Assembly: GCF_030547005.1 (NCBI RefSeq)
Contig: NZ_JAUOPN010000001.1
Span: 310,001-374,000 of the forward strand
Reading direction: 5' to 3'
Source: Maribacter sp. 1_MG-2023
Lineage (GTDB): Bacteria; Bacteroidota; Bacteroidia; Flavobacteriales; Flavobacteriaceae
DNA: 64,000 bases
Each line of letters begins with the position of its first letter. Position 1 is the first letter of the stretch. Position numbers and translations under genes: made by a program. This document shows, piece after piece, positions 11,419 through 56,823 of the stretch. Under the pieces are notes generated by a model. It was not told where the DNA came from, searched no databases, and saw nothing but the letters and a program-made list of their open reading frames with translations.

Positions 11419-11440
11419 GATTAAGGTTCTTTGTAAATAA

Positions 11441-14531: not shown

Positions 14532-14549
14532 CTATAAAGTTAGGTTGAT

Positions 14550-17423: not shown

Positions 17424-17500
17424 TTTCAGGTGTGTGATTTTTCTTAAAATAAAATTATTTATTCTTGATCAGGTATCTCAATAGAGATGTTTGTAATGAT

Positions 17501-17514
17501 ACCACATATGGTTA
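17501..17514 (-). promoter_or_regulatory. Candidate regulator box (CATATG-centred) upstream of the GH2 gene
   Basis: ACCACATATGGTTA on the plus strand, 78 bases upstream of the 957-residue GH2 start, reads TAACCATATGTGGT on the coding strand. It is nearly the same as the box before the GH16 gene at 6104-6117 and at a similar distance from the start codon. Confidence 0.35.
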
Positions 17515-17594
17515 ATTGTTCGCTTTATGCCAATTAAACGGGGCGGTAATGCCAGTTTATAGTGTTTTAGATTTATGTTAGTTATTTATAAAAA

Positions 17595-17624
17595 AAAGAC
17601 TTTGAATTTATATTCAAAGTCTTT
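17595..17624 (-). terminator. Rho-independent terminator of the sulfatase/GH2 operon
   Basis: A perfect 13-bp stem, AAAGACTTTGAAT and ATTCAAAGTCTTT, closes a 4-base loop. On the minus strand it is followed directly by a run of T. It lies 28 bases after the stop of the last sulfatase, marking the end of the 17652-24678 operon. Confidence 0.85.
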
Positions 17625-17651
17625 CGTCTATTCTGCGGTAAAATATAAAGG

Positions 17652-19241: not shown

Positions 19242-19253
19242 TGATTTATTGTT

Positions 19254-23140: not shown

Positions 23141-23157
23141 TTCTTTGGTATCTATGA

Positions 23158-24678
23158 TTAATCGGTTTGGTTTTCTGAAAAGCAATCGGTGATGTCAAGT
23201 GGGTCATCCATTTCTTGCTGTAATTGTTGTAAGTCTAGAAATAGCGATTTAATTCTTTCTTGTTGTTCAGGTAGATTAGAAATATCGTTCATTTCTTTAG
23301 GATCAACATTTAAATCGAAAAGGAGTATTTTTTTGATTTTAGGAAACACCATTAGTTTGTAACCATCTTTACGAATCATTCTTTGAACATCTAAATAGCC
23401 ACCGTAAATAGCATCATATTTACTTTTGGTTTCTTTTCCTTTTGCGATATCTAAAAAACTATGGAAATCAATATAAGTTGGCTTTTCTACGCCGGCAATA
23501 TCCAATGAAGTTGCCATGGCATCTTGTAAATATACATCTGTATCACTTTTCTTGTTTTTAGGTATATCTGGCCCTAAAATAATCATGGGTGGCCTAATGC
23601 TATGGTCAAATAAACTTTGCTTGCCCAGTAAGCCATGTCTACCCATAGCCAAGCCATGGTCTGCCGTAAAGATGATGTACGTATTGTTCATTTTGCCAGA
23701 ATCTTTAAGAGCTGATATAATTTTACCGATTTGAGCATCTACATGGGTAATGCTTGCGTAATATTCTTTTGTATGGGTTTTAATGGCAAGTTCTGTTCTA
23801 GGGAATGGTGCTAGAGCTTCATCTCTTAGGTTATCTCCGTTGGCAATATCATGTCTAAACGTATATTCGGGCATGTAGCTTTTAGGTAATGTTATATCAT
23901 CTATTGCATACATGTCTTGGTATTCTTGCGGTGCCTGCCTGGGGTCATGTGGCGCATTAAAAGCCAAGTACATAAAAAAAGGTTTTTCACTTTCTTTTGC
24001 TTTATTTATAAACCCAATGGCATCATCTTTTAAAACTTCGCTCCAATGTTTTCCGCCTTGCCAATACCCGCCATGAGCGGTATCTGTAGGTGACCAAGTA
24101 GTATCGTTGATAGAAAGTGGGCGATTATAGCCATTAGGCATAATATGCGCTGATTTTGCATTCGAAATTTTTGAAAGCGAATCGAACTTAGCGACCATGG
24201 TATCATGGTGCCATGCATCTTTAGGCATACCAGGGCGAATATGTGCTGTATGCATAAAAACTTTTTGGGCAGGAGCATCTACATGCCATTTTCCGGTCAT
24301 ATAGGTTTCATAACCATTACTTTCCAAAAGCTTGCCCCAAGTCTTATCGATAGAATCATTTGCAATCCAATTTTGTCTAAATGTATTTGCCCTCCAAACA
24401 GAGCGCCCAGAAATTATCATTGCTCTCGATGCCGCGCAGACAGCACCGCTCCATGAGCCCATATTGTAAGCATTTGTAAATGTGGTGCCGTCATGTACCA
24501 TGGCATCCATATTCGGAGTAATGATTTCTGAATTACCTAAAGCATGTATAGATGAATAGGTTTGGTCATCGGTAAAAATAAAAACAATGTTAGGCTTAGA
24601 ATTTTGGCTAGAATTTTTAGGCTCGCTTTCACAAGAGATGAATACTGAGAATAGAAAAAGGTATAGCGTAATTTTCAT
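23158..24678 (-). CDS. S1-type sulfatase with a CxAxR active-site motif, lipoprotein
   Basis: 506 residues, lipobox FISC at Cys16. The active-site motif is C81-A-A-S-R, i.e. alanine in place of the proline of CxPxR; this is an accepted variant for formylglycine formation. Other motifs: PNIVFIFTDDQTYSS, TGKWHVDAP, LAFNAPHDPRQAP and FTADHGLAMGRHGLLGK. The insert with tryptophans and histidines (about 190-215) is not seen in the other five sulfatases here. It is the first gene of the operon 17652-24678. Its promoter lies in the 24679-24831 gap, beyond the regulator's terminator. Confidence 0.87.
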   Translation of the reverse strand: MKITLYLFLFSVFISCESEPKNSSQNSKPNIVFIFTDDQTYSSIHALGNSEIITPNMDAMVHDGTTFTNAYNMGSWSGAVCAASRAMIISGRSVWRANTFRQNWIANDSIDKTWGKLLESNGYETYMTGKWHVDAPAQKVFMHTAHIRPGMPKDAWHHDTMVAKFDSLSKISNAKSAHIMPNGYNRPLSINDTTWSPTDTAHGGYWQGGKHWSEVLKDDAIGFINKAKESEKPFFMYLAFNAPHDPRQAPQEYQDMYAIDDITLPKSYMPEYTFRHDIANGDNLRDEALAPFPRTELAIKTHTKEYYASITHVDAQIGKIISALKDSGKMNNTYIIFTADHGLAMGRHGLLGKQSLFDHSIRPPMIILGPDIPKNKKSDTDVYLQDAMATSLDIAGVEKPTYIDFHSFLDIAKGKETKSKYDAIYGGYLDVQRMIRKDGYKLMVFPKIKKILLFDLNVDPKEMNDISNLPEQQERIKSLFLDLQQLQQEMDDPLDITDCFSENQTD

Positions 24679-24814: not shown

Positions 24815-24834
24815 ATAAAACAACATATGTTTTA
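24815..24834 (-). promoter_or_regulatory. Candidate regulator box (CATATG-centred) upstream of the sulfatase/GH2 operon
   Basis: The plus-strand sequence AAAACAACATATGTTTTATC overlaps the stop codon of the hybrid regulator and lies about 140 bases upstream of the sulfatase start. On the coding strand its core is AACATATGTTGTTTT, close to AACATATGATGTTTA found at 29260-29274. The overlap with coding sequence weakens the case. Confidence 0.3.
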
Positions 24835-27800
24835 TCCTTCTATTTCTTCATTTGAAATATCATCGGTCTTTTTAAGTCTAATGTACTTGCTAGGTATTAC
24901 GCCAAACTGTTTTTTGAAACATTTCGAAAAGTACGAAGCGGTATTAAAACCGGTCATGTACATGATCTCTTTTACTGATAAATCACTTTTTTCAAATAGT
25001 TGAACAGCACGTTTTAATCGAATATTTCTAATAAATTCACTTGATGAAAGACCGGTCAATTCTTTTATTTTCAAATACAAGTTACTTCTACTCATATTCA
25101 TTTCTTTAACTAACATTTCAACACTAAATTCAGAATTCATCATGTGTTTTTCTACAATTTCAATTGCATTTTGTAAAAATATTTCATCTGATGAGGTTAC
25201 CGTAACTTCATTTGGTTGTAATGTTATTTCTCTATTGAATCTTTTACGTAGTTCTTCACGATCTTTTAAAATATTAGCAAGTTTCAATTCTAAAAGTTCT
25301 AAATCAAAAGGTTTTCTAATATAGGCGTCTGCACCAGTTTTTAGTCCTTCGATTTCTTTTTCTTGAGATGTTTTAGCAGTAAGCATCACCACCGGAATAT
25401 GACTTGTTTCTTGTGTGGTTTTTAATTTATTACAAAGTTCAATACCATCCATAACTGGCATCATTAGATCTGTAATTACAATATTTGGCATAAACTTATT
25501 TGCCAACTCTAAACCTTTTTCTCCGTTTTCAGCTTCGTAGATATAATAGCTTTCTCCTAGTCCCTTTTTAATAAAAGATCTTATATCTGAGTTATCGTCT
25601 ACGATTAGTAGTAAGGGAAGTTTAGATCTAGACCGTGTCATGTTTTGGTCAATGATATCATCCATAAAACTGATGGCATGCGAGTCGGCATCATCTTTAC
25701 TGATAAAGGTGTTTGCTTCAAAAACTTCATGAAAGTTGAGTTCTTTTGTTTTTTCAAAGGTTTCTTTTTCTTTGGGTAACCAAACATAAAACGTAGTGCC
25801 GCTTTCAGAATCACTCTTAACTTTTATAATACCCTGATGTAATTCGACAAGATTTTTGGTAAAGGAGAGTCCGATACCCGTTCCTTTGGTATCTACATGG
25901 GTTGTAAGTCCTATTTCAGTGTAAAAGCGTTCGAATATATGTTGTAATCTATGGGCCGGAATACCGGGACCAGAATCTTTAACTTGAATAACAATGTATT
26001 TAGATTGGTCTACTGTAAGCTCAATGTCTTTTGGTTTATTAAAATCATTACCATCGAAAATTTCAAGAAGAATGCTACCGTCTTCAGGTGTAAATTTAAA
26101 GGCATTCGAAAGTAGATTATTGCAAACTTTCTCAACGGCATCTGGATCGAACCATGATAAAATTGAATCTTTCGAAGATTTTATTTCGAATTCAATATTC
26201 TTTTTTCTGCTCAGAAACTGAAATGGTTCACCTACTTCTTTTAAAAACTCGGTAATATTACTTTTACTTAGATTAAGGTTCATTTTACCATGATCCATTT
26301 TTCTAAAATCTAATAATTGATTTACCAAGCGTAATAGGTAATCGGTATTTTTTCGCATCAACCCATATTGATCTTTGGTTTCTTTCGGGCTAATTTTTTC
26401 TCCCTTTTTAATTAAATAGTCTAACGGACCTTTTATAAGTGTAAGCGGGGTTCTAAACTCATGAGATATATTGGTAAAGAATTCAAGTTTAAGTCGGTGA
26501 ATTTCTTCGTTCTTATCTTTTTCTAAATTTCGAAGTTCTAATTGATGCTTCTCTGCAGATCTAATCATAGTAAATCTTCTAAAAGCATATAACAATGCTA
26601 TTGCCAATAATAAATAAGCAAATTTGGCAAGGTTTGTTTGCCACCATGGCGGTGTAACTTTTATTTTAATTTCAACAGGAGTTTCGTCCCAAATATTATC
26701 GTTGTTTGAAGCTTTTACACGTAAGATATAAGAACCTGGCTCAAGATTGGTATATGTGGCAAACCTATTATCGGCAGATGTGTAGATCCAATCTTTATCA
26801 AACCCATCTAACTTATAAGCAAATTTGTTTTTACTGGAAGCGGCATAATGCAAGGCGGCAAACTCGAAAGAGAAGCTGTTTTCATTATGTTTTAATTCAA
26901 TTTCGCCTATAGAATTTATAGATTGATCAAGAATAACGCGACCATTTATTTTGGTGTCAATAGCCACAGGTTTATTAAAGATGGAAAAGTTGGTTAAAAC
27001 CGTTTCTGGTTTTATTTTATTACTTATAATATCTTCGGGGTAGAAAGCGGTAAGACCGTTAACACCTCCAAAAAGCATCAATCCTTCTTCGGTTTTATAA
27101 GCGGCTAGCTCGCTAAATTCGTTGCTTTGTAAGCCATCATTTACATCATAATTTTGAAATTTCTCTTTGTCAATACTAAATTTTGATATTCCTTTATTGG
27201 TTGATAGCCATAGATTGCCCTGATTATCATCTAAAATTCCTTTTATAACATTGTTAGGTAAACCCTCTTTTTCACTATAGGTTTTAAAATGTTCTGGTTC
27301 ATCATCTTTTCTAGGTATAAGCTTATTTAAACCACCACCAAAAGTACCTACCCATATGTCTTTAGACTTACTTTCGAAAACGGATAAAATGTAGTTATGG
27401 CTAATGGTAGTTTCATCATCAGGCGTATTCTTATAATTAACAAATTTTGGATTCTTAGAATCAATTTGATTGTAAGGTAATTTTGCTAGACCATTACCGG
27501 TAGCAAACCAAATATCACCCTTTGAGTCTTGAAAAATATCTCTAATAATATTATTGGGTATGCCAGTTTCATTGTTTGTATTATGCTTAAAATTATCTTT
27601 AACGAAGGTATCACCATCTTCTTTTATGAGCCAACGTTGTATGCCCCCATTATAAAAACCTAACCATATATTATGCTCTTTATCTTGTAAAATAGAAAAA
27701 ACACTACTTGGTACTTCGGATATTGCCTTTAAGTCTTCTTCTGTTATTTTTTTATTATTGCCAAGGTCTATTTCGAATAAACCTGGTGAATTCTCTCCTC

Positions 27801-29121
27801 CAACTAATAATTTGGTGCTAGATTTTAATTGTATTTCTTCAATGGCAAATACCTTGTTGATTTTTGTAAAGTGTTGAAATTGATTAAAATCACTTTCTTT
27901 ATCTGTTTTCCCTAACAAGTTTAAACCACCACCTTCGGTACCGATCCATAGGTTTTTATTTTTATCTTCATGAATGGCCCTAACCTTATCGTTACTTAAA
28001 CTACCTACTTCGAGATTCTTTTTAATATGTAAAAATTGTTTTCTTTGAGGGTCAAATTTATTGACTCCGCCACCATTGACACCCACCCATATGATACCAG
28101 TATGATCAATATATAATGATTTAACCGCATTTTTGCTTAAACTGTTCGTAGGGTTTTCAGGGTCGTACTTGTATTCGCCTACCAACTCGGGTAATTTTGT
28201 TTCAGATAGGTTAGAAAACTCTAAAAGACCATAGTCGGTACCTGCCCAAATATGATTGTTATTTATTGAAATGGTGTTAAAATTGCCACTATAGAAAAAC
28301 TGTAACTGATTCTCTTTTTTATTTGGAGAATATCGATAAAGACCATTACTAGTACCTAAAATTAAATGGCCATAAGTGTCTTCAACTATAGATTTTACTT
28401 GCGTGTTTGGTAAGTTGATTTTTTCGTTTACTTCTTGAAAATACATGTCTCCATTATTATCTCTAGATAACTTAGAAAGACCATTTATGCCACCGATCCA
28501 GATTTGGTGCATACTGTCTTCGAAAAAAGTGTTTACATTATTACTGTTTCTAGTAGGTGAATTGCTGTTTTGATATAAGTTGAAATGTTCAAATTTTAAT
28601 GAATCTGTTGGCTTTGATAGATCGGCCATATCAATTCCTTTCGTGGTACCTACCCAAAGTCTGTTATCACTATCATTAAATAGTAAGGTGATGTAATTAC
28701 TTTTTATGGAAAATTCATTATTAGGGTCACTTTTAAAATGTTTGAATTTTTCAGTTTTTTGATCGAAGTAATTTAAACCCCCACCAGTAGTTCCTATCCA
28801 TAAATTACCTGATTTATCATCAATTATTTTCCAAATTAAGTTGCTACTTATGCTGTGCGGCTTTTCAGGGTTTGGTTTAAAAACAGTAAAATTATAACCA
28901 TCATATCTGTTTAACCCATCATGTGTTCCAAACCACATAAAACCGTTATCATCTTGAATAATTGTATTTACATCGCTTTGCGATAATCCGTTCTCTGTAT
29001 TTAAATGCTCAAATTTTAAAGAATTTTGAGCGTAAGAGGTATGTGCTAATCCGAAGAGCAGCATAAAGATTAAATATAGCGAACTCCTAGTCGAGCTCAA
29101 TTTATAGGGGAGATTGGTCAT
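24832..29121 (-). CDS. Hybrid two-component system sensor kinase/AraC-type regulator (HTCS)
   Basis: 1429 residues with an N-terminal signal peptide ending near SYAQ (about 31). About 35-725 holds repeated periplasmic propeller units of the Reg_prop type (DGLNRYDG, GLNYFD, WIGTEGGGLNLL, WFATGNGL). A Y_Y_Y-type Ig domain follows (FAYKLDGFDKDW). A membrane helix lies at about 826-850. Next come HisKA with H887 in ISHEFRTPL, an ATPase domain (GTGIGLSFTKNLVELH), a receiver domain with D1218 in ITDLMMPVMDG, and an AraC-type DNA-binding domain ending near 1410. HTCS proteins bind oligosaccharides in the periplasm and activate nearby utilization genes. It is divergent from the L-galactose operon. 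Confidence 0.95.
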   Translation of the reverse strand: MTNLPYKLSSTRSSLYLIFMLLFGLAHTSYAQNSLKFEHLNTENGLSQSDVNTIIQDDNGFMWFGTHDGLNRYDGYNFTVFKPNPEKPHSISSNLIWKIIDDKSGNLWIGTTGGGLNYFDQKTEKFKHFKSDPNNEFSIKSNYITLLFNDSDNRLWVGTTKGIDMADLSKPTDSLKFEHFNLYQNSNSPTRNSNNVNTFFEDSMHQIWIGGINGLSKLSRDNNGDMYFQEVNEKINLPNTQVKSIVEDTYGHLILGTSNGLYRYSPNKKENQLQFFYSGNFNTISINNNHIWAGTDYGLLEFSNLSETKLPELVGEYKYDPENPTNSLSKNAVKSLYIDHTGIIWVGVNGGGVNKFDPQRKQFLHIKKNLEVGSLSNDKVRAIHEDKNKNLWIGTEGGGLNLLGKTDKESDFNQFQHFTKINKVFAIEEIQLKSSTKLLVGGENSPGLFEIDLGNNKKITEEDLKAISEVPSSVFSILQDKEHNIWLGFYNGGIQRWLIKEDGDTFVKDNFKHNTNNETGIPNNIIRDIFQDSKGDIWFATGNGLAKLPYNQIDSKNPKFVNYKNTPDDETTISHNYILSVFESKSKDIWVGTFGGGLNKLIPRKDDEPEHFKTYSEKEGLPNNVIKGILDDNQGNLWLSTNKGISKFSIDKEKFQNYDVNDGLQSNEFSELAAYKTEEGLMLFGGVNGLTAFYPEDIISNKIKPETVLTNFSIFNKPVAIDTKINGRVILDQSINSIGEIELKHNENSFSFEFAALHYAASSKNKFAYKLDGFDKDWIYTSADNRFATYTNLEPGSYILRVKASNNDNIWDETPVEIKIKVTPPWWQTNLAKFAYLLLAIALLYAFRRFTMIRSAEKHQLELRNLEKDKNEEIHRLKLEFFTNISHEFRTPLTLIKGPLDYLIKKGEKISPKETKDQYGLMRKNTDYLLRLVNQLLDFRKMDHGKMNLNLSKSNITEFLKEVGEPFQFLSRKKNIEFEIKSSKDSILSWFDPDAVEKVCNNLLSNAFKFTPEDGSILLEIFDGNDFNKPKDIELTVDQSKYIVIQVKDSGPGIPAHRLQHIFERFYTEIGLTTHVDTKGTGIGLSFTKNLVELHQGIIKVKSDSESGTTFYVWLPKEKETFEKTKELNFHEVFEANTFISKDDADSHAISFMDDIIDQNMTRSRSKLPLLLIVDDNSDIRSFIKKGLGESYYIYEAENGEKGLELANKFMPNIVITDLMMPVMDGIELCNKLKTTQETSHIPVVMLTAKTSQEKEIEGLKTGADAYIRKPFDLELLELKLANILKDREELRKRFNREITLQPNEVTVTSSDEIFLQNAIEIVEKHMMNSEFSVEMLVKEMNMSRSNLYLKIKELTGLSSSEFIRNIRLKRAVQLFEKSDLSVKEIMYMTGFNTASYFSKCFKKQFGVIPSKYIRLKKTDDISNEEIEG

Positions 29122-29391: not shown

Positions 29392-30402
29392 ATGAAATAT
29401 ATAGTTTGTGAAAAACCGGGTGAATTTATTTTAAAAGAAAAAGAAGCACCTGTAAGAAAGAAAGATGAAGCCTTGTTGAGAATTAAAAAAGTAGGTATTT
29501 GTGGTACGGATCTACATGCCTATGGAGGCAATCAAGCTTTTTTTACATATCCGCGAATATTAGGTCATGAGTTGGCTTCTGAGGTAGTTGAGATTGGAGC
29601 AAATGAACGTGGAATTAAAGCAGGAGATAAGGTGGTAGTAATGCCGTACATAAGCTGTGGAAAATGTATCGCTTGTAGAAACGGAAAAACAAATTGTTGT
29701 ACTAATATCAGAGTTTTGGGCGTACATACCGATGGTGGAATGCAAGAGTTCATTACCGTACCCACCAATATTCTGTTGTTAGCCAATAATTTGACCGATG
29801 ATGAAATGGCTATTGTAGAACCACTGGCAATTGGGGCACATGCTGTTAGAAGAACCAATATTGTACCTGGCGAAACAGTTGCCGTTGTTGGTTGTGGACC
29901 AATCGGGATAGGAATTATGAAATTAGCTCAGATTGCAGGTGCAAAAGTTATCGCTTTAGATATGAACGAGCAACGTTTGCAATATGCAAAAGATAAAATA
30001 GGGGTAGATTATATTGTTAATGTAAGCGAAGATCCCGTAAAACAAATTTCTGAAATTACAAATGGAGAATTATGTACGGCCGTATTCGATGCTTCCGGAC
30101 ACAAGGGGGCATTAGAAATGTGTCCTTCGTACATGTCGCACGGAGGTAGGTTTGTTTTAGTAGGACTTTCAAAAGGAGAACTTACCTATACGCACCCGGC
30201 AATACATGCAAAAGAAATGACTTTAATGTGCAGTAGAAATGCTACTACTGAAGATTTTGAACATGTTATTAATGTTTTAGATCAATTTCCAACGGCATCA
30301 TTTATTACACATTCGGTCCCCTTTACAGAAATGATCGAAAATTTTGATAGTTGGTTAAAACCAGAAACAGGGGTAATAAAAGCAACAGTTAATTTTAATT
30401 GA
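29392..30402 (+). CDS. lgoD: Zn-dependent L-galactonate 5-dehydrogenase (LgoD-like)
   Basis: 336 residues, cytoplasmic medium-chain dehydrogenase. Catalytic zinc ligands are C37 in GICGTDLHAYGG, and H59 and E60 in LGHE. The structural zinc cysteines are C89, C92, C95 and C103 (CGKCIACRNGKTNCC). The NAD site is VGCGPIGIG. As I recall the E. coli L-galactonate oxidoreductase LgoD (YjjN), it shares GICGTDxHAxGGNQxFFxYPR and the late segment KExTxMxSRNAT almost exactly. The reaction is L-galactonate + NAD to D-tagaturonate. The next two genes encode altronate dehydratase and tagaturonate reductase, which consume that product, and this strongly supports the call. It is first in a seven-gene operon divergent from the HTCS. 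Confidence 0.85.
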   Translation: MKYIVCEKPGEFILKEKEAPVRKKDEALLRIKKVGICGTDLHAYGGNQAFFTYPRILGHELASEVVEIGANERGIKAGDKVVVMPYISCGKCIACRNGKTNCCTNIRVLGVHTDGGMQEFITVPTNILLLANNLTDDEMAIVEPLAIGAHAVRRTNIVPGETVAVVGCGPIGIGIMKLAQIAGAKVIALDMNEQRLQYAKDKIGVDYIVNVSEDPVKQISEITNGELCTAVFDASGHKGALEMCPSYMSHGGRFVLVGLSKGELTYTHPAIHAKEMTLMCSRNATTEDFEHVINVLDQFPTASFITHSVPFTEMIENFDSWLKPETGVIKATVNFN

Positions 30403-30406
30403 TATA

Positions 30407-32053
30407 ATGCAAAAAAGTTACGTTCAAATAGATCCGAAAGATAATATAATCGTTGCCATCACTAATTTAGAGAAGGGTACGGTTGTTACTATTGCAGATC
30501 TAGAGGTTACTTTAATCGAGCATATTAAGCAAAAACATAAGTTTGCCTTGGTCGATTTTAATTTGGGTGATGACATTTTTATGTACGGTGTTTTAATTGG
30601 TAAAGCAATGACTAAAATTGCTGCAGGTTGTGCTATTACCATAGAAAACGTAAAACATGCCTCTGCAGAATTTAGCGAAACTAAAGTAGCATTTAATTGG
30701 CAGGCACCTGATGTTTCTAAATTTGAGAATAGAACTTTTAACGGCTACCATAGAGAAGATGGTAAAGTAGGTACAGCCAATTATTGGTTGGTTATACCGC
30801 TGACATTTTGCGAAAACAGAAACTTAGATGTAATTGAAGCTGCACTATCAGAAAAATTAGGATACCAAACCACGAAAGACTTTTCTGTAGATACAGATGC
30901 TTTAATTCAACAATATAAATTAGGTAGTTCAAGAGATAAAATATTAAACACACCTATAATTGCTACTCATGAAGAAATGGCGAAAAATAGGGTGTTCCCG
31001 AATGTAGACGGAATTAAATTTTTAAAGCATGATGGTGGTTGTGGAGGCATTCGGCAAGATTCTGAAACCTTATGCAAGTTGCTAGCTGGTTACATCGCCA
31101 ACCCAAATGTGGCTGGTGCAACCATACTGAGTTTGGGTTGCCAAAATGCACAGATTTCAATGCTTCAAAATGCATTGAACGCAATCGATAGTAATAAGCC
31201 CGTGCATTATTTAGAACAACAGCGAAGTTTAAGCGAACGTCATTTTATTGAAGAAGCTGTTAAAGTAACTTTCTTGGGGTTAATCGATGCTAATGAAATC
31301 TTTAGAAAACCGGCACCACTTAGTAAATTGGTTCTAGGTTTGGAATGTGGCGGGTCAGATGGTTTTTCAGGTATTTCTGCCAATCCTGCCTTAGGGTATG
31401 CATCTGATCTATTGGTTGCTTTAGGGGGTAGTCCTGTATTATCAGAATTTCCGGAGTTGAATGGGGTAGAACAAGAAATCATTAATAGATGTATTACTGA
31501 TGAAGACTCTAAAAAGTTTTATGACCTAATGCGTGCATATTCCGCTGCTGCAGTTGCCGTGGGTTCTGGTTTTGAAAATAATCCGTCTCCTGGTAATATA
31601 AAAGACGGTTTAATTACCGATGCCATGAAATCTGCCGGTGCAGCTAAAAAAGGTGGTACTTCACCCATAGTAGAGGTTTTAGATTATACGGAACAGGTGA
31701 CCAAACCAGGATTGAATTTATTATGTACCCCTGGTAACGATGTAGAATCTACTACGGGTCTTGTTGGTTCGGGCTGCAATGTGGTTGTGTTTACCACTGG
31801 TTTAGGCACACCAACAGGTAACCCTGTAGCCCCAGTTTTAAAAATGTCGAGTAATACTGCTTTATATGAGCGTATGAATGATATTATTGATATTAATGCC
31901 GGTACGGTTATCAGTGGTGAAGATTCTATAGAAACTATGGGCGAAAAAATACTGGAACATATTATTCAAGTAGCCAGTGGTACGCTTGCTTCAAAAGCGG
32001 TCGCACATGGTAATAATGACTTTATTCCGTGGAAAAGAGGAGTTTCTTTATAA
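30407..32053 (+). CDS. uxaA: Altronate dehydratase (UxaA family)
   Basis: 548 residues, cytoplasmic. An N-terminal SAF-type domain (about 5-90) is joined to the large dehydratase part. Family motifs include KHDGGCGGIRQDS, LSLGCQNAQI, LECGGSDGFSGI, KGGTSPIVEVLDY and LCTPGNDVESTTG. The reaction is D-altronate to 2-keto-3-deoxy-D-gluconate plus water. Four bases separate it from the dehydrogenase gene, and the reductase gene follows 30 bases later. In this locus no hexuronate isomerase accompanies it, so it most likely serves L-galactose rather than galacturonate breakdown. Confidence 0.9.
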   Translation: MQKSYVQIDPKDNIIVAITNLEKGTVVTIADLEVTLIEHIKQKHKFALVDFNLGDDIFMYGVLIGKAMTKIAAGCAITIENVKHASAEFSETKVAFNWQAPDVSKFENRTFNGYHREDGKVGTANYWLVIPLTFCENRNLDVIEAALSEKLGYQTTKDFSVDTDALIQQYKLGSSRDKILNTPIIATHEEMAKNRVFPNVDGIKFLKHDGGCGGIRQDSETLCKLLAGYIANPNVAGATILSLGCQNAQISMLQNALNAIDSNKPVHYLEQQRSLSERHFIEEAVKVTFLGLIDANEIFRKPAPLSKLVLGLECGGSDGFSGISANPALGYASDLLVALGGSPVLSEFPELNGVEQEIINRCITDEDSKKFYDLMRAYSAAAVAVGSGFENNPSPGNIKDGLITDAMKSAGAAKKGGTSPIVEVLDYTEQVTKPGLNLLCTPGNDVESTTGLVGSGCNVVVFTTGLGTPTGNPVAPVLKMSSNTALYERMNDIIDINAGTVISGEDSIETMGEKILEHIIQVASGTLASKAVAHGNNDFIPWKRGVSL

Positions 32054-32083
32054 ACTTTTCAATTTAATACAAGTAAGAGTAGC

Positions 32084-33562
32084 ATGACGATACATAAGGA
32101 AATAACAGAACTACAAATATTGAACAGAAAAACTACAGGTAAGCCTGTAGAATACCCTGTTCGTGTACTACAGTTTGGTGGAGGTAATTTTTTAAGGGCA
32201 TTTTGCGATTGGATGTTCGATGTTTTAAATAAAACAACAGATTTCAATGGTAGTGTGGCTGTCGTTAAACCAACCGAAAGAGGGGAGTATTCAGAACTCT
32301 TAAATCAAGACGGCTTGTTTCATGTAGTTTTAGATGGATTGAAAGACGGTAATTTAGTCTCAGAGGTAACATTGGTAGAATCTGTTAGTACTATTATTCA
32401 ACCGTATAAAGATTGGAATGCATATTTGGCTTTGGCAGAGGTACCTGAACTGAGATTTATTGTTTCTAATACTACAGAAGCAGGAATTAAATTTTCGGAA
32501 AAGGATCAAAAGACAGACAACCCACCTCATGAATTTCCGGCTAAATTGACCTTATGGTTATATCACCGGTTTAATTATTTTAAAGGTGCAGCTGATAAAG
32601 GTTGCATTTTATTACCATGCGAATTAATTGAAGATAATGGCGATGCTTTACAGAAAACCATTATTCAATATGCTGAACACTGGGGTTTAGAAACAGCATT
32701 TATCACTTGGATCAATAACTGTAATTATTTCTGTAGCACACTAGTTGATCGTATTGTGTCTGGTTTTCCTACGGATAGAAAAGTTGCCATTGAACAGCAA
32801 ACGGGTTATAAAGATGATTTGTTGGTCGCTGGTGAGGTGTACCATAGTTGGGTTATAAAAGCAGCACCAATTGTTCAAAAAGAATTGCCTTTTTCTAAAA
32901 CGGACTTAAATGTTTTGTTCGTTGATGATCTTAAAGAGTATAGAGAAATGAAGGTTCGTATTCTAAATGGGGCCCATACTTCTTTGGTGCCTGTAGGGTA
33001 TTTGGCAGGTCTAAGAACTGTATTAGAAAGTATGAACGATGATTTGGTTAGAAACCATGTATTGCAAGTACTGTCTGAAGAAATAAAACCTACGCTAACC
33101 AATTTCTCAGAAAAGGAGATTGACGCATTTATAAATGCAGTTATTGATCGATTTAAGAATCCGACTCTTAAACATTTTTTAATAGCCATATCATTAAATA
33201 GTACATCTAAATTTCAGGCTCGCTTATTACCGGCATTTAAAGAATACACTCAAATTAACGGTCATTTTCCAAAGAGAATAGCATTTTCATTAGCATGTTT
33301 AATTCGTTTTTATAAAGGCGAATTCGATGGAGAGCATATTCCAGTAAATGATGATGCTAATGTGTTGGGCTACTTTAATGAAGAATGGCGAAAAGTAACA
33401 GAGCAACACCAAACTATAGAAAACTTGGTTACAAACGTACTGTCTAATAGTGATATAGTTGGCGAAAATTTAACCACATATAATGGTCTGGTTCAATTTG
33501 TTACTAAGAGTATCAATAGCATAAATGAAGTAGGTGTAAAAGAGTGTTTAAAGGCACTATAA
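32084..33562 (+). CDS. uxaB: Tagaturonate reductase (UxaB; mannitol-dehydrogenase family)
   Basis: 492 residues. The N-terminal NAD site is VLQFGGGNFLRAF (about 28-40). NTTEAG marks the family's substrate pocket, and the catalytic segment is MKVRILNGAHT (Lys, Asn and His of the polyol dehydrogenase family). The reaction is D-tagaturonate + NADH to D-altronate. It therefore links the LgoD-like enzyme with the altronate dehydratase. The order dehydrogenase, dehydratase, reductase in one operon forms a closed redox pair: one NADH is made at L-galactonate and one is used here. Confidence 0.9.
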   Translation: MTIHKEITELQILNRKTTGKPVEYPVRVLQFGGGNFLRAFCDWMFDVLNKTTDFNGSVAVVKPTERGEYSELLNQDGLFHVVLDGLKDGNLVSEVTLVESVSTIIQPYKDWNAYLALAEVPELRFIVSNTTEAGIKFSEKDQKTDNPPHEFPAKLTLWLYHRFNYFKGAADKGCILLPCELIEDNGDALQKTIIQYAEHWGLETAFITWINNCNYFCSTLVDRIVSGFPTDRKVAIEQQTGYKDDLLVAGEVYHSWVIKAAPIVQKELPFSKTDLNVLFVDDLKEYREMKVRILNGAHTSLVPVGYLAGLRTVLESMNDDLVRNHVLQVLSEEIKPTLTNFSEKEIDAFINAVIDRFKNPTLKHFLIAISLNSTSKFQARLLPAFKEYTQINGHFPKRIAFSLACLIRFYKGEFDGEHIPVNDDANVLGYFNEEWRKVTEQHQTIENLVTNVLSNSDIVGENLTTYNGLVQFVTKSINSINEVGVKECLKAL

Positions 33563-33570
33563 TAAAATAT

Positions 33571-34398
33571 ATGAAAATAGATTCGCATCAACATTTTTGG
33601 AAATATGAACCGGTAAAACATAGCTGGATAGATGATGAAATGGCAGTAATCAGAAAAGATTTTATGCCAGCTGATCTAAAGCAAGTATACCTTGAAAATG
33701 ATATTGATGGCTGCGTTGCAGTACAGGCAGATCAAACAACTGCTGAAACGGATTTTTTAATTGAACTGGCTTCAGAAAATAATTTTATAAAAGGAATTGT
33801 AGGATGGGTAGACCTAAGAGGTAACGATATTGATGAGGTTTTGGAGCATTACAATAAGTTTAAAGTTGTAAAAGGTTTTAGGCACGTCGTACAAGGTGAG
33901 GCTGATCACAATTTTTTATTGCGACCAGATTTTCTTGCAGGTATCTCAAAATTAGCTCGCTATAATTTCACCTATGATATATTGGTGTTTCCGCATCAAT
34001 TGGGAGCAGTTCTAGAATTTGTGAAAAAATTCCCGAATCACAAATTTGTAATTGATCACATAGCTAAGCCTTATATAAAAGATAGTTTTTATGAGGGTTG
34101 GGCTGTTTTAATGACCGAAATAGGTAAGCAAAAAAATGTGTATTGCAAGTTGTCGGGGATGATTACCGAAGCCGATTATAAAAAATGGACAGTTGAGCAA
34201 ATAACACCCTATATGACCTTGGTATTAAATGCTTTTGGCGCAGATAGAATTATGTTCGGTTCTGATTGGCCAGTGTGTTTAGTGGCAGGAAATTACAAAA
34301 CCGTAAAAAAAATAGTTACAGATTTCATTTCGCAATTAAGTGAAGAAGAGCAGGCTAAAATAATGGGTTTGAATGCAATGAAATTTTATAATTTATAA
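33571..34398 (+). CDS. Amidohydrolase-superfamily sugar lactonase (COG3618 type; L-galactono-/L-fucono-lactonase)
   Basis: I place the start at the ATG at 33571 (MKIDSHQHFW), 8 bases after the uxaB stop; a longer frame from 33544 overlaps uxaB and adds nothing conserved. 275 residues. The metal/active-site pattern is DSHQHFW at the N-terminus, FVIDHIAKP in the middle and FGSDWPV near the end. Enzymes of this group hydrolyse L-fucono- and L-galactono-1,5-lactones. The operon context (L-galactonate dehydrogenase two genes upstream, sugar dehydrogenase just downstream) points to L-galactonolactone. L-fucose or L-rhamnose lactones remain possible. Confidence 0.8.
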   Translation: MKIDSHQHFWKYEPVKHSWIDDEMAVIRKDFMPADLKQVYLENDIDGCVAVQADQTTAETDFLIELASENNFIKGIVGWVDLRGNDIDEVLEHYNKFKVVKGFRHVVQGEADHNFLLRPDFLAGISKLARYNFTYDILVFPHQLGAVLEFVKKFPNHKFVIDHIAKPYIKDSFYEGWAVLMTEIGKQKNVYCKLSGMITEADYKKWTVEQITPYMTLVLNAFGADRIMFGSDWPVCLVAGNYKTVKKIVTDFISQLSEEEQAKIMGLNAMKFYNL

Positions 34399-34408
34399 TA
34401 GGAACAGT

Positions 34409-35200
34409 ATGGATTTAAAACTAAAAGATAAAGTAGTTGTCGTAACGGGTGCTGCAGGATTAAAGGGAAGTATTGGTGAAACCATAGTTCAGCATTTGGC
34501 AGCCGAAGGCGCAATACCTGTAATCGTTTGTAGAAATGATAGAGGTATAGGTTATGAGAAAGAATTACGAGAAAAAGGTATTGACGCCTTGTTTGTAAAG
34601 ACAGATTTATCTGATCATGTTCAAATTGAAAAGGCTGTTCGTAAAATAGAAGAGAAATACGGTGAAATACATGCATTAATAAATAATGTAGGGGTTAACG
34701 ATGGTGCAGGTTTAGATGCTTCAATAGATGATTTTATGTATTCCTTAAAACTAAATATGGTAAGCTATTTTGCAATGACTAAATACTGTTTGCCAATGCT
34801 TAAAAAGTCAAAAGGAAATATTTTGAATATAGGCTCGAAAGTAGCACTTACAGGTCAAGGTGGTACTTCTGGGTATGCAGCGTCAAAAGGTGGTGTCTTC
34901 GGTTTAACCAGAGAATGGGCGGTTGATTTAATACAATTCGGTATCCGTTCTAATGCTATTGTTATAGCAGAAAGTTGGACTCCCGCTTATGATGCTTGGA
35001 TTAAAACTTTAGATAACGGAGAAGAAAAACTTGAGGCTATCGTTAAAAAGATTCCTTTAGAAAATAGAATGACAATGCCGGCAGAAATAGCAGATCAATG
35101 TCTATTTACCATTTCAGAAAAATCATCTCATACAACCGGTCAGTTTATTACCGTAGACGGCGGGTATGTGCATCTTGATAGATCTTTATTGACGGAATAA
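34409..35200 (+). CDS. SDR sugar dehydrogenase, probable L-galactose (or L-fucose) 1-dehydrogenase
   Basis: 263 residues. The nucleotide site is TGAAGLKGSIG (about 13-23), with four residues more than the usual TGxxxGIG. The catalytic residues are S143, Y156 and K160 in YAASKGG. It lies 10 bases after the lactonase gene and before a FucP-like permease. The expected reaction is oxidation of L-galactose at C1 to L-galactono-1,5-lactone, feeding the lactonase. The family alone would allow L-fucose, L-rhamnose or 3-oxoacyl substrates, so the substrate comes from pathway logic. It is the only candidate in the operon for the first oxidation step. Confidence 0.7.
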   Translation: MDLKLKDKVVVVTGAAGLKGSIGETIVQHLAAEGAIPVIVCRNDRGIGYEKELREKGIDALFVKTDLSDHVQIEKAVRKIEEKYGEIHALINNVGVNDGAGLDASIDDFMYSLKLNMVSYFAMTKYCLPMLKKSKGNILNIGSKVALTGQGGTSGYAASKGGVFGLTREWAVDLIQFGIRSNAIVIAESWTPAYDAWIKTLDNGEEKLEAIVKKIPLENRMTMPAEIADQCLFTISEKSSHTTGQFITVDGGYVHLDRSLLTE

Positions 35201-35266
35201 TTCCCGCTTTTCCTATCAGAATAACCAAAGTCTAATTAGTACCAGATTAGCATTTTTATTTTAATC

Positions 35267-36607
35267 ATGAAAGTTATCCAGCTAAATATGAATCAACCAA
35301 AAAAAATACCCGTAGTCAGTAAAGAGTTATTAGTTCCGTTTATAATAATCACTATACTTTTTGCTTTATGGGGCTTCGCCAATGATGTTACTAACCCTAT
35401 GGTGACTGCATTTAAAAAAGTAATGCCAGAATTAAGTTGGACACAAGCATATTTAGTACAATTTGCATTTTATTTCGGCTATGGTTGTATGGCCATACCA
35501 GCTGCACTTTTTATTAAAAAATATACTTATAAAAAAGGTATCATTCTTGGGCTGTCGCTTTATGCTGTAGGAGCATTTTTATTCTATCCGGCATCTGTCT
35601 ATGAAGAGTATTCGTATTTTTTAATTTCATTATATGTTATCACTTGTGGCTTAGCCTTATTGGAAACAACTTCAAACCCATTGATTTTATCGCTAGGGGC
35701 AAAAGAAACCGCTACACAACGATTGAATTTGGCACAGTCATTTAATCCTATTGGGTCAATATCAGGTATGTTGATAGCTCAGTTTGTTGTCCTTAGTCAA
35801 ATAAAATCGTCAACTTACAATGATGATACCTACGCGGCTTTAGATGCGGCAAGTAAAGCTTCAATTAAAACCGAAGATTTGAATATTATTAGTTACCCTT
35901 ATTTAGGCATAGGAGTTGTTGTTTTGGTTATTTTAATATTAATAGTATTTACCAAAATTCCGACGGTTCAAGAACATACTAGTTTAAGCTTTAAAGAATC
36001 GTTAAATAAAATCTTTTCGAAGAAGACTTTTTTACCTGGTGTTATAGCTCAAATGTTTTATGTAGGTGCACAAATAATGTGTTGGACAGCTATCTTTCAA
36101 TACGTGCAATATTTAAATGAATCTACAAATAGTGATATAAATGCCACGTATATGAATATGATTGCTATGGGAATTTTTCTTGGCGGTCGTTTTCTGGGTA
36201 CTGCTTTGTTAAGTGTATTCTCGGCGCCAAAATTACTATACACCTTTGCCGGCTGTGCCGTTTTATGTTGTGCGGGTGCTATTGTTATACCTGGTATGCC
36301 CGGGTTAATTTCTTTAGTTAGTATTTCTTTATTCATGTCAATTATGTTCCCTACTATTTATGGTATAGCTTTAAAAGATATGGGTGACGAAGCAAAGTTG
36401 GGGTCTGCTTTTCTGGTGATGGCAATTGTTGGAGGCGCTATCTTTCCGTTAATGCAAGGTGCCATTATCGACATAGGAGGTGATAACCTTGCGGACACGC
36501 TTATTTTAGGAGTTCCAGAAGTTAAATTTTCTTTTATAATGCCAATGATATGTATCGCTGTTGTCGGTTTATATGGCTTATATGCTGCTAAACAACAAAA
36601 AGCTTAA
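35267..36607 (+). CDS. FucP-like sugar:proton symporter (MFS)
   Basis: 446 residues with about 12 hydrophobic helices. An alternative ATG at 35288 (MNQPKK) is equally plausible. Features shared with the L-fucose permease family include FALWGFANDVTNPM in helix 1, FYFGYGCMAIP in helix 2, and GLALLETTSNPLILSLG with TQRLNLAQSFNPIGSI in helices 4-5. The E. coli member also carries L-galactose, which shares stereochemistry with L-fucose, so L-galactose is a natural substrate here. It acts at the inner membrane after periplasmic breakdown of the glycan. The 66-base gap to the SDR gene may allow some independent control. Confidence 0.85.
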   Translation: MKVIQLNMNQPKKIPVVSKELLVPFIIITILFALWGFANDVTNPMVTAFKKVMPELSWTQAYLVQFAFYFGYGCMAIPAALFIKKYTYKKGIILGLSLYAVGAFLFYPASVYEEYSYFLISLYVITCGLALLETTSNPLILSLGAKETATQRLNLAQSFNPIGSISGMLIAQFVVLSQIKSSTYNDDTYAALDAASKASIKTEDLNIISYPYLGIGVVVLVILILIVFTKIPTVQEHTSLSFKESLNKIFSKKTFLPGVIAQMFYVGAQIMCWTAIFQYVQYLNESTNSDINATYMNMIAMGIFLGGRFLGTALLSVFSAPKLLYTFAGCAVLCCAGAIVIPGMPGLISLVSISLFMSIMFPTIYGIALKDMGDEAKLGSAFLVMAIVGGAIFPLMQGAIIDIGGDNLADTLILGVPEVKFSFIMPMICIAVVGLYGLYAAKQQKA

Positions 36608-36625
36608 TTATTTAAAACTTGAACG

Positions 36626-36964
36626 ATGACTAAAAGATATTGTTACGCCTGCGATTTAAAAGAGGACGCTAAACTTATTGCAGAATACAAAGCATATCAT
36701 GCCGAAGGCAAGGCATGGCCAGAAATCACTAAAAGTATTAAAGATGCCGGTATTGTTGATATGCAAATTTACCTCACTGGTAACCGCATGTTCATGATTA
36801 TGGAAGTTGATGAAACATTCGATGCTGAGAAAAAAGCAAAAATGGATGCCGATAATACTAGAGTTCAAGAATGGGAGAATTTAATGTGGAATTACCAACA
36901 AGAATTGCCATGGACCAAAGATGGTGAGAAGTGGATTGAATTAGAACAGATTTTTCAGTTGTAA
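36626..36964 (+). CDS. Sugar mutarotase, RhaM / L-fucose mutarotase-like
   Basis: 112 residues, small ferredoxin-like fold. MTKRYCYACDLKED at the start, YKAYHAEGKAWPEI, the MQIYLTGNRMFMIMEVD strand and the end QELPWTKDGEKWIELEQIF match the L-rhamnose mutarotase (RhaM) family. It would speed interconversion of alpha and beta anomers of an L-sugar before C1 oxidation. It sits 18 bases after the permease as last gene of the L-galactose operon and is followed by a strong terminator. L-galactose or L-fucose is the likely substrate. Confidence 0.85.
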   Translation: MTKRYCYACDLKEDAKLIAEYKAYHAEGKAWPEITKSIKDAGIVDMQIYLTGNRMFMIMEVDETFDAEKKAKMDADNTRVQEWENLMWNYQQELPWTKDGEKWIELEQIFQL

Positions 36965-37297: not shown

Positions 37298-39826
37298 TTA
37301 TTCTTGTTTATTTGGTTTTATCGTGATTTCAATTTCATTGCTCGTTAATGTATTAGAGCTGGCTTTGATACGTATTGGTTTTGAGCTACCTTTTATTGAT
37401 TGAACAATAAGTAAAGCACGCCCTTTATCTGTCATTAATTCTTGTGAATTAAAGTTTTGCGTGTTAGTGATACTGCCATTATCTACGCCAAGCACTTTTG
37501 CATCTCCGGTCACTGTAAATTTTACTTTTTGATTTTCTAATTTAACAGGATTACCATCTTTATCTATTATTTGAAGTATAATATGAGCAGTGTCATAACC
37601 ATCTGCTACTACGCTTTTAGTATCAGTAGATATTGCTAAGGCTTTTGGTTGAGTGCTCGTTTTTATAAATGATTCAAAGTTTTCTCCGTTATTATATCCG
37701 ACAGCTTTTAAAGTGCCGGCTTCAAATGGAACTGCCCATTTGTAAATATGATCCTCAAAATCTGCTAGTTTTTTTATGCCTAATGATTTTTCGTTCAAGA
37801 AAAGTTCTACTGCATCAGAATTTGAATATACTTCTACTATTGTGGTTTGATCACTATCATAGTTCCAATGTTCATTAACATCTTGCCAAACCCAAAGCGC
37901 TTTTTGCCAAGCGCCTTCTTTTTTCTCAACAACTTTACCATGGTCATTAAGCACATATTTTGATTTTTCAATAGTCTGTGTAGCAATGTATATACTAGGT
38001 GTCTCGCTCCATAAAGATTTAAACATGTAGAACGACGGCTTTTCAAATCCAGCCAAATCTAATAATCCGCTTGGGGTTCCTTTTTTAGGCCATCCTCCGT
38101 TAGATTCTCCCAAGTAGTCAATGCCGGTCCATAAGAATGTTCCTGAAATGAAAGGTCTTTCAATGACAGCCTTCCATTCATGCCATTGTCCTAAATTTTC
38201 GGTACCCATAAGTGGCTTATTTGGGTAGTTTTCATGACCATAATCGTAAAGAACTCGTCTATAGCTAAAACCAATTATGTCTAGAGCTTCTGCATAACCA
38301 GATTCATAACTAGAAGAAGGTAGAATGCAATTGGCTATTACATACCTTGTTGTGTCTAATTCTTTGGTCCATTTAGCCAATTTCTGAGCAGTTTTACCAA
38401 TATCATACGCTGCTTTTGGCAACGTGTCTAGCTTCTCTTTAATCTGTTCTATGCTATTTGGTGGTGTAGACCAAAAGTAATTACCACTCCAGTCCATATT
38501 ATTAAAGAAACCGGTAGCTTCAGCATTACGAGGGTATGTCCATTCAATTTCATTACCAATACTCCATTGAAAAATAGATGGGTGATTTCTATGTGATAAA
38601 ATGGTGTTTTTCAAGTCTCTTTCTGCCCATTCTTGAAAATGTTCAACATAACCTCTGGTAATGTAGTCCACACTTTTTTCGTTCATGTTTTTTCTTTTGT
38701 CTTTAGGGTTGTCCCATTCATCAAAGAATTCATCTTGAACTAAAAAGCCCATTTCATCGCATAAATCTAAAAATTCATTAGAAGCAGGGTTGTGCGATAT
38801 TCGTATAGCATTACAACCCGCATCTTTTAGTTTTTCTAAACGTCTTCTCCAAACACTTTTAGGTACGGCTGCACCAACTAAGCCAGCGTCATGGTGTAAA
38901 CAAACACCTTTTATTTTACGGTTTTTCCCATTAAGATAGAATCCTGTATTGGCATCGAACTTAATACTGCGAATTCCGAAAATAGTTTCTTCAGTATCTA
39001 CAACTTGATCATTTTCAATAATTTGAGTAATGGCTTTATAAAGAGTAGGTTTGTCTACATCCCATAAATCAGGATTTTTAATAGCTACGGTAGTTGTATG
39101 ATTTTCTGTAGCCCCTGTGTAAATCGTTAGTTTTTTACTTGTTGAACCAACCTTTAAATTCTCATTATTGAAAATTTCTGTAGTGATTTTCACTCTTTTA
39201 TCTTCTGAATACCCGTTTTTAAGTTGAGTTTCTATTTTAACCGTGGCTTTATCCTCATTTACCTGAGGTGTGGTTATGAATGTTCCCCATACCGGAATGT
39301 GTAGTTTGTTTTTTGTAATTAAGGTTACATTTCTATAGATGCCAGAACCGGTATACCATCTGCTGTCGGCATATCTTGTTCTATCTACAGTTACATTTAT
39401 AGTATTTGTGTTTGGGTGCAATTTTTCGGTTATGTCATGAAAGAAAGGTGCATAGCCATAAGGGTGTTCGCCTAATTCTTGATTATTTAAGCTTATACTA
39501 GCATTATTATATACACCATCAAAAACCAAATATGCAACTTGATTGTCGTTCAAGTTTAGTGTAAATTTTTTTTTATAAAATCCAGTACCTCCTAATAAAT
39601 ATCCTGTAGCTCCTTCACCGTTTATTGAGTCGAATGGAGTGCCAATGCTCCAATCATGCGGTAGGTTTATTTTTTTCCAAGTAGTATCGAACCGATTAGA
39701 TGTGGAGTCTTCTAACTTAAATTCCCAATTAAAATTAAAATCGGTATTAGTAGTCAAATATTCTTTGGTAGAACAACTAAAAAGTGTGATTGCAATTAGG
39801 TGAATAAGGAAGATTTTATATTTCAT
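37298..39826 (-). CDS. GH2 family beta-galactosidase-like lipoprotein
   Basis: 842 residues, lipobox LFSC at Cys18. The order is sugar-binding domain ([18 protein letters not shown]), Ig-like domain, TIM barrel, then C-terminal Ig-like domains ([17 protein letters not shown]) like those of Bacteroides beta-galactosidases. The acid/base is E426 in SIGNEIEWT and the nucleophile is E543 in [10 protein letters not shown] long insert (about 430-500) with [11 protein letters not shown] separates the two, which may shape the substrate pocket. It is a single-gene unit, convergent with the L-galactose operon and divergent from the TPR regulator. Activity on beta-D-galactose at the non-reducing end is likely. 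Confidence 0.87.
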
Positions 39827-45200: not shown

Positions 45201-45301
45201 ATCCAGAAGTTGGTGGTAATGGTATAAGCACAAGAGGTGTTGATAGAGGTAATTATCCTGTAACCAGAAGATTTGTTCTAGGGGTTAAAGTTAAATTTTA
45301 A
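42206..45301 (+). CDS. SusC-like TonB-dependent outer-membrane transporter
   Basis: 1031 residues. A signal peptide ends near GHAQ (about 29). A carboxypeptidase-regulatory-like domain (about 32-105, GSVSDEQGTPIPGATI) is followed by the TonB-box-like DEVVVVGYG (108-116). The plug domain carries IQGRVAGVNV, GVGSLLGSLEPLYVVDG and IYGVRASNGVILITTK. The rest is a 22-stranded barrel ending in VKVKF with a terminal phenylalanine. It imports oligosaccharides across the outer membrane using TonB energy, with the SusD lipoprotein as lid. It begins the susCDE-like operon and is the only SusC/SusD pair in the window. Confidence 0.95.
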   Translation: MKEKDKLWKRMLSVFSLFVILAMQQGHAQDVINGSVSDEQGTPIPGATILIEGTTKGAVADFDGVFSINSASGDVLVISSIGFKTKKVSVGANENLKVVLIEDLALLDEVVVVGYGTQKKKEVTGAVVQVKSDVISIAPVTDISEAIQGRVAGVNVQAASGRPGEAANIQIRGVGSLLGSLEPLYVVDGVPYESNPNIAPDQVETIDILKDGAAASIYGVRASNGVILITTKSGKEGKLDVNFSTYTGIQNITSGTPLMNTQQQLFADFSVDNVLNGGNLPGYFITSPELLDYDSDFVGDVQNNNALFRNYELGISGGSKDLNLGFSTSYIDQEGVLIKSGFDRLSSRLTANFTKGKFKAFATVAYTEENREQEPFAYYEYSIGQNPWQLPLGDLNISEDNVVTIPVDNTIYFGFLAKQLLNIDDRKTTSTNVAFNMQYELAKGLTYKLSLSNNKFDYNRKFFRPTFLIYGRDGVLNATASTLEAQLQKDFTMSTRRVLENMINYDVKFGSHKVNTTLVSSFEDYTSEQLTIGGIGFPTNSTQEIGQAFSATTPTSFVNNYALSGLLGRVQYSYDERYLLSASIRRDGSSKFGPDNRYGTFGGISVGWNIAEENFFKNSFLGDAVNSLKFRASYAELGNQDVQPYAASTQIETGVNYLFGPNEAIASGLIQRRNANPDLKWETSVSKNIGFDLAMFQNRLTLTADFYSNDKQDMLLPFQTPPSLGTSAPGAETVYNPIFINAGKMTNEGVEIALGYKGDFKSGLKYNISSTFTKNTNEIIDLNGIERGYSNGRPTFSLGNSIDETTFFAVGHEAGSFFLLKNEGVIKTDAELAEYQQINPSAAKGDIRYADVNGDNAIDDNDRVYAGSGQAEWEAGLNVDLNYKNFDLSVQTYMSYGAELFNGARFFAYTQGRHLDQYYQWSPQNPTSDIPSYRNSEATESIRARSDYWIEDGTYLRIRNITLGYSLPKELLDKTKIGSIRLYLTGFNPFTFTNYTGYDPEVGGNGISTRGVDRGNYPVTRRFVLGVKVKF

Positions 45302-45319
45302 TAACTAATTAAGAAAAAA

Positions 45320-53104: not shown

Positions 53105-53146
53105 CTTAATTAAATAAAAGGTGCTATTAATTACACTTATTACTAC

Positions 53147-54601: not shown

Positions 54602-54612
54602 AGTATATTGTA

Positions 54613-56001: not shown

Positions 56002-56040
56002 GTACCGATGATGCATTGTATACCTTTTTTTGAATTATTA

Positions 56041-56811: not shown

Positions 56812-56823
56812 ACTTGTTTTATA

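Follow-up and report, generated by a model that had tools for sequence, protein, structure and literature searches.

Gene content of the operon

The 64,000-base stretch of Maribacter sp. 1_MG-2023 DNA analysed here (the window, bases 310001-374000 of a 672-kb contig in a 4.27 Mb genome that is 99.98% complete) carries seven intact open reading frames (ORFs) on the plus strand between positions 29392 and 36964, which are discussed in the following as a candidate operon for L-galactose catabolism (Table 1). The ORFs are tightly packed, with gaps of 4, 30, 8, 10, 66 and 18 bases in gene order. A first-pass annotation of the window, made from the letters alone, had listed the same seven genes, and all of them are present and fall into the families named there far above chance. 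The curated NCBIfam cut-offs are far exceeded by UxaB, the short-chain dehydrogenase/reductase (SDR) and the FucP-type permease; in the domain search of the operon PF20629 scores 323 bits. For the lactonase the listed ORF has a GTG start and begins at 33544. A hybrid two-component system regulator (HTCS), of which the C-terminal 722 residues were covered by the domain scan, diverges from the operon across an intergenic region of 270 bases and is a candidate regulator. A Flavobacteria-type promoter pattern was no more frequent than expected by chance and did not occur before the operon.

Table 1 Features of the operon and of the galactan locus around it (positions in the window)
Feature	Position	Strand	Supporting matches
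Zn-dependent dehydrogenase (ADH), LgoD-like; proposed L-galactonate 5-dehydrogenase (product D-tagaturonate)	29392..30402	+	PF08240/PF00107
UxaA-family D-altronate dehydratase (product 2-keto-3-deoxygluconate, KDG)	30407..32053	+	SAF, GD_AH_second, GD_AH_C
UxaB, tagaturonate reductase	32084..33562	+	NF002969 638 bits (cut-off 359)
COG3618-type amidohydrolase lactonase; proposed L-galactono-1,5-lactonase	33571..34398	+	PF04909 162 bits
SDR, L-fucose dehydrogenase family; proposed L-galactose 1-dehydrogenase	34409..35200	+	NF052481 359.6 bits (cut-off 300)
FucP-type sugar permease of the major facilitator superfamily	35267..36607	+	TIGR00885 481 bits (cut-off 280)
RhaM/COG3254-type sugar mutarotase	36626..36964	+	PF05336 105 bits (cut-off 23.4)
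HTCS, divergent from the operon; candidate regulator	24832..29121	-	Y_Y_Y, HisKA, HATPase_c, Response_reg, HTH_18
Four sulfatases and two glycoside hydrolase family 2 (GH2) enzymes of the galactan locus	12699..24678	-	PF00884, GH2 domains
GH2 beta-galactosidase-like enzyme, next after the operon	37298..39826	-	GH2 domains; NF041463 GalB 554 bits (under cut-off 900)
SusC/SusD pair	42206..47059	+	PF00593, PF07980
GH16 beta-agarase-like enzyme	48905..49849	+	PDB 3wz1 249 bits, beta-agarase A 229 bits
Proposed 3,6-anhydro-L-galactose arm: MR_MLE enzyme, aldehyde dehydrogenase, sulfatase, KduD-like SDR, second Zn-ADH (ADH2)	52013..57840	-	Pfam/NCBIfam
GH117 3,6-anhydro-alpha-L-galactosidase	58937..60163	-	PDB 3p2n 779 bits

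The ADH shares 41.5% identity (288 bits) with LgoD of E. coli K-12 and ADH2 (56824-57840) shares 28% (128 bits), by which the operon enzyme is clearly the nearer relative. UxaB and UxaA are 44% and 31% identical to their E. coli namesakes, and the window UxaA clusters with UxaAs whose operons include UxaB as well. The closest solved relative of the SDR is PDB 4gkb (250 bits), which we take to be the Burkholderia family member that accepts L-galactose. A member of the L-fucose dehydrogenase family in Burkholderia is reported to accept L-galactose. The lactonase is closest to PDB 4dlf (181 bits); against NF052480, the L-fucono-1,5-lactonase equivalog, it reaches 272 bits, under the cut-off of 400, which might fit a relative acting on a different substrate. 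A PDB search with the mutarotase gave no match.

Proposed route from L-galactose to KDG

We consider it very probable that the seven genes constitute one operon for L-galactose released from an agar-type red-algal galactan, with KDG as its end point. Such an oxidative route inside a red-algal galactan locus had been suggested in the first-pass annotation, and it is well supported by homology, by gene context and by the enzymes missing from the genome. Substrates, reaction order and regulation are what we infer here; the families to which the genes belong, their order and its conservation, and their linkage to agar genes are read directly from the DNA. L-galactose would enter through the FucP-type permease, and the mutarotase presumably keeps it in the reactive anomer. 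The SDR would oxidise the sugar at C1 to the 1,5-lactone, which the lactonase could open to L-galactonate, the likely substrate of a C5 oxidation to D-tagaturonate by the LgoD-like dehydrogenase. UxaB would then reduce D-tagaturonate to D-altronate and UxaA would dehydrate the latter to KDG. A KDG kinase and a 2-keto-3-deoxy-6-phosphogluconate (KDPG) aldolase encoded elsewhere in the genome are expected to convert KDG onward to pyruvate and glyceraldehyde 3-phosphate; homologues of both lie on contig C13 and share 84% and 82% identity with the pair in the operon of a relative.

The operon UxaB is the only close tagaturonate reductase of the genome (the second match has 26% identity), and the operon UxaA is its only GD_AH_second match, so that tagaturonate of any origin would need to pass through this operon. 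No FAH-type (2,4-diketo-3-deoxy-acid) hydrolase was found in the genome at 1e-30, a protein that completes the non-phosphorylative L-fucose route and is present in all eight other genomes searched, and the genome gave no PF02952 match for an L-fucose isomerase.

Occurrence of the operon in Flavobacteriaceae

For comparison, 397 Flavobacteriaceae genomes evenly drawn from a larger set were surveyed (tblastn pieces covering less than 40% of the query were dropped in the locus surveys, less than 50% in one other search). An SDR at 1e-65 or better occurs in 119 of them. A tree of 65 clade-A sequences (at least 60% identity) and 6 of the 11 fetched clade-B loci separates clade A, which includes the window SDR and is defined by at least 64% identity to it, from clade B with a Shimodaira-Hasegawa-like approximate likelihood ratio (SH-aLRT) support of 100. 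Stretches of 12-20 kb were examined around all 65 clade-A genes (the window's included), which come from 62 genomes. UxaA and UxaB accompany the SDR in 31 of these (referred to as UxaAB genomes), an FAH-type set does so in 10, and 21 have other or partial sets. Loci were typed by the genes lying no more than 9 kb from the first SDR match, and some 'other' or 'part' loci may thus be misfiled; two of them (L214, L215) have a fucose-type set farther away.

UxaA and UxaB near a close relative of the SDR amount to 32 loci in 31 of the 397 genomes; Zobellia barbeyronii and Cellulophaga baltica are among the species with this operon. The ADH is present in each of the 32 and the full set of seven genes could be recognised in 21 (counted by hand, window included); an FAH hydrolase is present in none. 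KDG kinase and KDPG aldolase lie together within the fetched stretch of nine UxaAB loci, and in eight, by hand count, they are on the operon's strand between or beside its genes. An LgoD-like ADH lies within 9 kb of the SDR in 57/65 clade-A loci, and is present in 5/21 named clade-B loci.

A glycoside hydrolase family 29 (GH29) enzyme stands within the operon of an uncultured Cellulophaga (L065), of Ulvibacterium marinum (L068) and of another isolate (L067). Enzymes at least 35% identical to the GH29 of the L033 operon are found at 15 of 32 UxaAB loci (L033 counted) versus none of 11 FAH loci (p=0.004). In the PDB the L033-operon enzyme scores 343 bits against exo-alpha-L-galactosidase and 349 bits against 7snk, a chain deposited as alpha-L-fucosidase; the next fucosidases follow at 269 bits. 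Three GH29 genes are present 13-36 kb upstream of the window, and one of them is L-galactosidase-like, with 391 bits against the exo-alpha-L-galactosidase, an equal score with 7snk and 247 bits with the next fucosidase.

Note that all 65 clade-A SDRs, like the solved relatives 4gkb and 6drr, have the catalytic lysine of the YxxxK motif (K160 of the window SDR); an asparagine takes its place in 27 of 27 clade-B SDRs examined (for example L052:9594-10370 and L119-L139).

Linkage to agar degradation

The earlier assignment of the locus to porphyran finds no clear support in the window. The GH16 enzyme resembles beta-agarases and scores just 22-31 bits against porphyranases, and the GH117 together with the 3,6-anhydro-L-galactose genes points to agar. 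The region 52013-60163 matches the anhydrogalactose gene order described for Aquimarina ERC-38, with a sulfatase added here (PMC10163077). As the pathway of that organism ends at KDG according to the accessible text of the same paper, which in that part describes no L-galactose operon, the window would hold two arms converging on KDG, and both L-sugar forms of the galactan could feed a single point.

GH117, counted at an E-value of 1e-80 or better, is present in 35 of the 397 genomes: 19 of the 31 UxaAB genomes, 2 of the 10 with an FAH-type set, 6 of the 21 others and 8 without a clade-A SDR. The comparison of 19/31 UxaAB with 16/366 non-UxaAB genomes gives a Fisher p of 3e-15, uncorrected for kinship. 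SDR and GH117 lie within 52 kb on one contig in 7 of the 19 genomes by hand count (G000, the window's genome, and G641, G133, G511, G659, G648, G311), for which the chance is roughly 1e-5 to 1e-7 with a limit of 52 kb that was chosen after the distances were seen. Of the window's own genus, two genomes have neither the SDR nor GH117 at the thresholds used, a pattern that would fit acquisition of the whole locus in one piece.

Several observations weigh against an operon for L-galactose from agar. A close GH117 is missing from 12 of the 31 operon genomes, 8 of the 35 GH117 genomes are without a clade-A SDR, and two of the sampled genera (g6, g214) run opposite to the association, each with one member that carries GH117 but no UxaAB operon and a second in which the reverse is the case. 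Neither a porphyranase nor an L-galactosidase was recognised in the window. The SDR passes the NCBIfam cut-off for L-fucose dehydrogenase, and the permease and mutarotase families take their names from deoxy sugars. Clade-A SDRs with the same ADH are also found in FAH-type clusters that have neither UxaA nor UxaB, for example in L032 (SDR 86% identical), and hence the sequence of the SDR does not fix the downstream route. The SDR tree shows no clean split by downstream context and needs at least three switches between UxaAB and FAH contexts, those two counted alone. Finally, the UxaA of an L-fucose-type cluster is as distant from the E. coli protein (31%) as the window UxaA, and this comparison therefore cannot separate altronate from L-fuconate dehydratases.

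A more far-reaching proposal is that clade-A SDRs are dedicated L-galactose 1-dehydrogenases derived from L-fucose dehydrogenases, that the operon moves among marine Bacteroidota as a module, and that it forms, together with the anhydrogalactose arm, a two-armed funnel of L-galactose and 3,6-anhydro-L-galactose from agar and porphyran into KDG; for this we regard the arguments on either side as evenly balanced.

Alternative substrates and pathways

The SDR, lactonase, FucP and mutarotase are all of the kinds used in the non-phosphorylative L-fucose route, in which UxaA would act as L-fuconate dehydratase. Besides the family score of the SDR and its best PDB match, 4gkb, an L-fucose operon is suggested by several Bacteroidota L-fucose-type clusters that hold a UxaA homologue with an FAH hydrolase and a second SDR, and by a study of Watanabe et al. 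2019 that, by its title, concerns promiscuity of the UxaA family in L-galactose and L-fucose routes. In such a route the C5-dehydrogenase and the tagaturonate reductase would have no role, and the KDG kinase and aldolase that adjoin 8/32 UxaAB operons speak against fucose because C6 of a 6-deoxy acid is not open to phosphorylation. Cellulophaga baltica DSM 24729 keeps the two sets apart, although each has a clade-A SDR: its UxaAB operon, with an SDR 94% identical to the window's, has GH16 and anhydrogalactose genes as neighbours, and another contig bears the fucose-type genes, among them FucD, a further SDR and an FAH hydrolase. An L-fucose operon thus seems improbable, and it was rejected as the principal explanation since neither the FAH hydrolase (at 1e-30) nor the isomerase was found in the genome. 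Overlapping with the preferred assignment to L-galactose is the idea of a dual operon, whose upper enzymes are promiscuous and oxidise L-fucose or D-arabinose as well, and in which L-galactose alone is carried to KDG. The GH29 genes of the genome could free either sugar; the searches of it, however, turned up neither of two enzymes central to the known L-fucose routes, so that oxidised fucose would be a dead end, barring an unrecognised route. We consider a dual function conceivable but rather unlikely.

The first-pass annotation had taken the absence of a hexuronate isomerase as an argument against galacturonate use. This is correct for the window; in the genome, a uronate isomerase, UxaC, is encoded at G000:C1:245832, approximately 96 kb upstream of the operon's UxaB, and galacturonate-derived tagaturonate, if made, would need this sole close tagaturonate reductase. 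Nevertheless, UxaA and UxaB serving mainly tagaturonate from UxaC is very hard to believe, as the SDR, lactonase, FucP and ADH would be left unexplained. Within about 15 kb of UxaC there are a D-mannonate oxidoreductase (304 bits, cut-off 281) and a mannonate dehydratase UxuA (588 bits, cut-off 200), and by size and order a probable TRAP transporter; because UxaC sits with these two enzymes, G000:C1:245832-261135 is regarded as a self-sufficient glucuronate-type locus. A D-galacturonate operon was rejected as the principal function on these grounds, the distance of UxaC and its own glucuronate partners. Neighbour counts made by hand argue in the same direction. UxaB does not adjoin UxaC in any of five UxaAB genomes compared, being 96 kb away in G000, far apart in G109 and on different contigs of draft assemblies in G286, G133 and G119, whereas the two genes are within approximately 6 kb in five of five ADH+FAH genomes (G281, G095, G216, G148, G158); they are unlinked in G291 and G251. 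On a simple reading, tagaturonate goes to the galacturonate operon in species that possess one, and the L-galactose operon includes UxaA and UxaB in those that do not.

Quite unlikely, too, is a direct dehydration of L-galactonate by UxaA to 2-keto-3-deoxy-L-galactonate, which would join the anhydrogalactose arm via ADH2 and the KduD-like SDR, both encoded in the window. A UxaA-family L-galactonate dehydratase of Acidovorax is mentioned as unpublished data in PMC6336799. Four loci (L201, L203, L212, L217) combine ADH, lactonase, SDR, FucP and mutarotase with ADH2, a KduD-like SDR, KDG kinase and KDPG aldolase, with no UxaA or UxaB nearby, which hints at an alternative way from L-galactonate into the anhydrogalactose route. 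In the window, direct dehydration was rejected as the leading explanation as it would idle UxaB and the LgoD-like ADH, yet both are beside UxaA in 32/32 loci (UxaB by definition of the type).

Relation to known systems

The breakdown of the agar and porphyran polymers has been studied in detail. The open-access literature searched yielded neither a report on what becomes of the L-galactose unit in marine bacteria nor a description of such an operon in marine Flavobacteria (subscription papers lay mostly outside the search). The operon offers a specific and testable answer on this fate, and it recurs in 31 of the 397 family genomes.

The first three steps, from L-galactose via the lactone and L-galactonate to D-tagaturonate, were reportedly described for Phocaeicola (Bacteroides) vulgatus by Hobbs et al. 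in 2014. In that system the route is the same and includes a lactonase and an L-galactonate dehydrogenase, but the lower steps are reportedly contributed by the general hexuronate pathway; here UxaA, UxaB, the permease and the mutarotase are within the operon. In E. coli, the genes for LgoD, UxaB and UxaA are at three separate places and the route begins at L-galactonate. With the non-phosphorylative L-fucose pathway of Burkholderia multivorans and Campylobacter jejuni the operon has the SDR, lactonase, FucP and mutarotase families in common; ADH and UxaB are extra here.

The lgu cluster of Luteolibacter sp. LG18 (Verrucomicrobiota), which also allows use of L-glucose, runs via tagaturonate and was tested by enzyme assays and knockouts (PMC12632266). 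Like the present operon it brings together a dehydrogenase, an L-galactonate dehydrogenase, a tagaturonate reductase and an altronate dehydratase, in one cluster with a KDPG aldolase. As far as the accessible text of that paper goes, lguA-F comprise neither a FucP-type permease nor a RhaM-type mutarotase nor a lactonase, an enzyme which is never mentioned there, and no algal galactan locus is described. The pathway type itself is thus already known. Apparently new are the membership of the first enzyme in the L-fucose dehydrogenase family, the inclusion of the lower steps together with permease and mutarotase in an operon that is linked to agar degradation, and the linkage to a 3,6-anhydro-L-galactose route that is also expected to end at KDG. 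Annotation names such as 'L-fucose dehydrogenase' and 'FucP' currently blur the use of L-galactose and L-fucose; UxaA, UxaB and an LgoD-like ADH beside the SDR would provide a marker that separates the two.

Further observations

The SusC/SusD pair of the galactan locus is followed at 47070-48632 by a 520-residue protein without Pfam match that, to judge by its position, probably binds glycans at the cell surface. Close to the sulfatases and GH2 enzymes (9895-11929 and 12009-12590) there are a protein with a Dabb domain and a weak match to a lactonase propeller, one HbpS-like protein and one that belongs to the cyclic-nucleotide-binding kind. Among the loci of the survey, three FAH-type sets with an LgoD-like ADH (L182, L188, L190) adjoin apparent L-arabinose genes, as judged on protein starts and lengths. 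L182 carries a UxaA homologue, and an ORF at the edge of L190 (41-1069) resembles, by eye, a dehydratase of the IlvD/EDD type.

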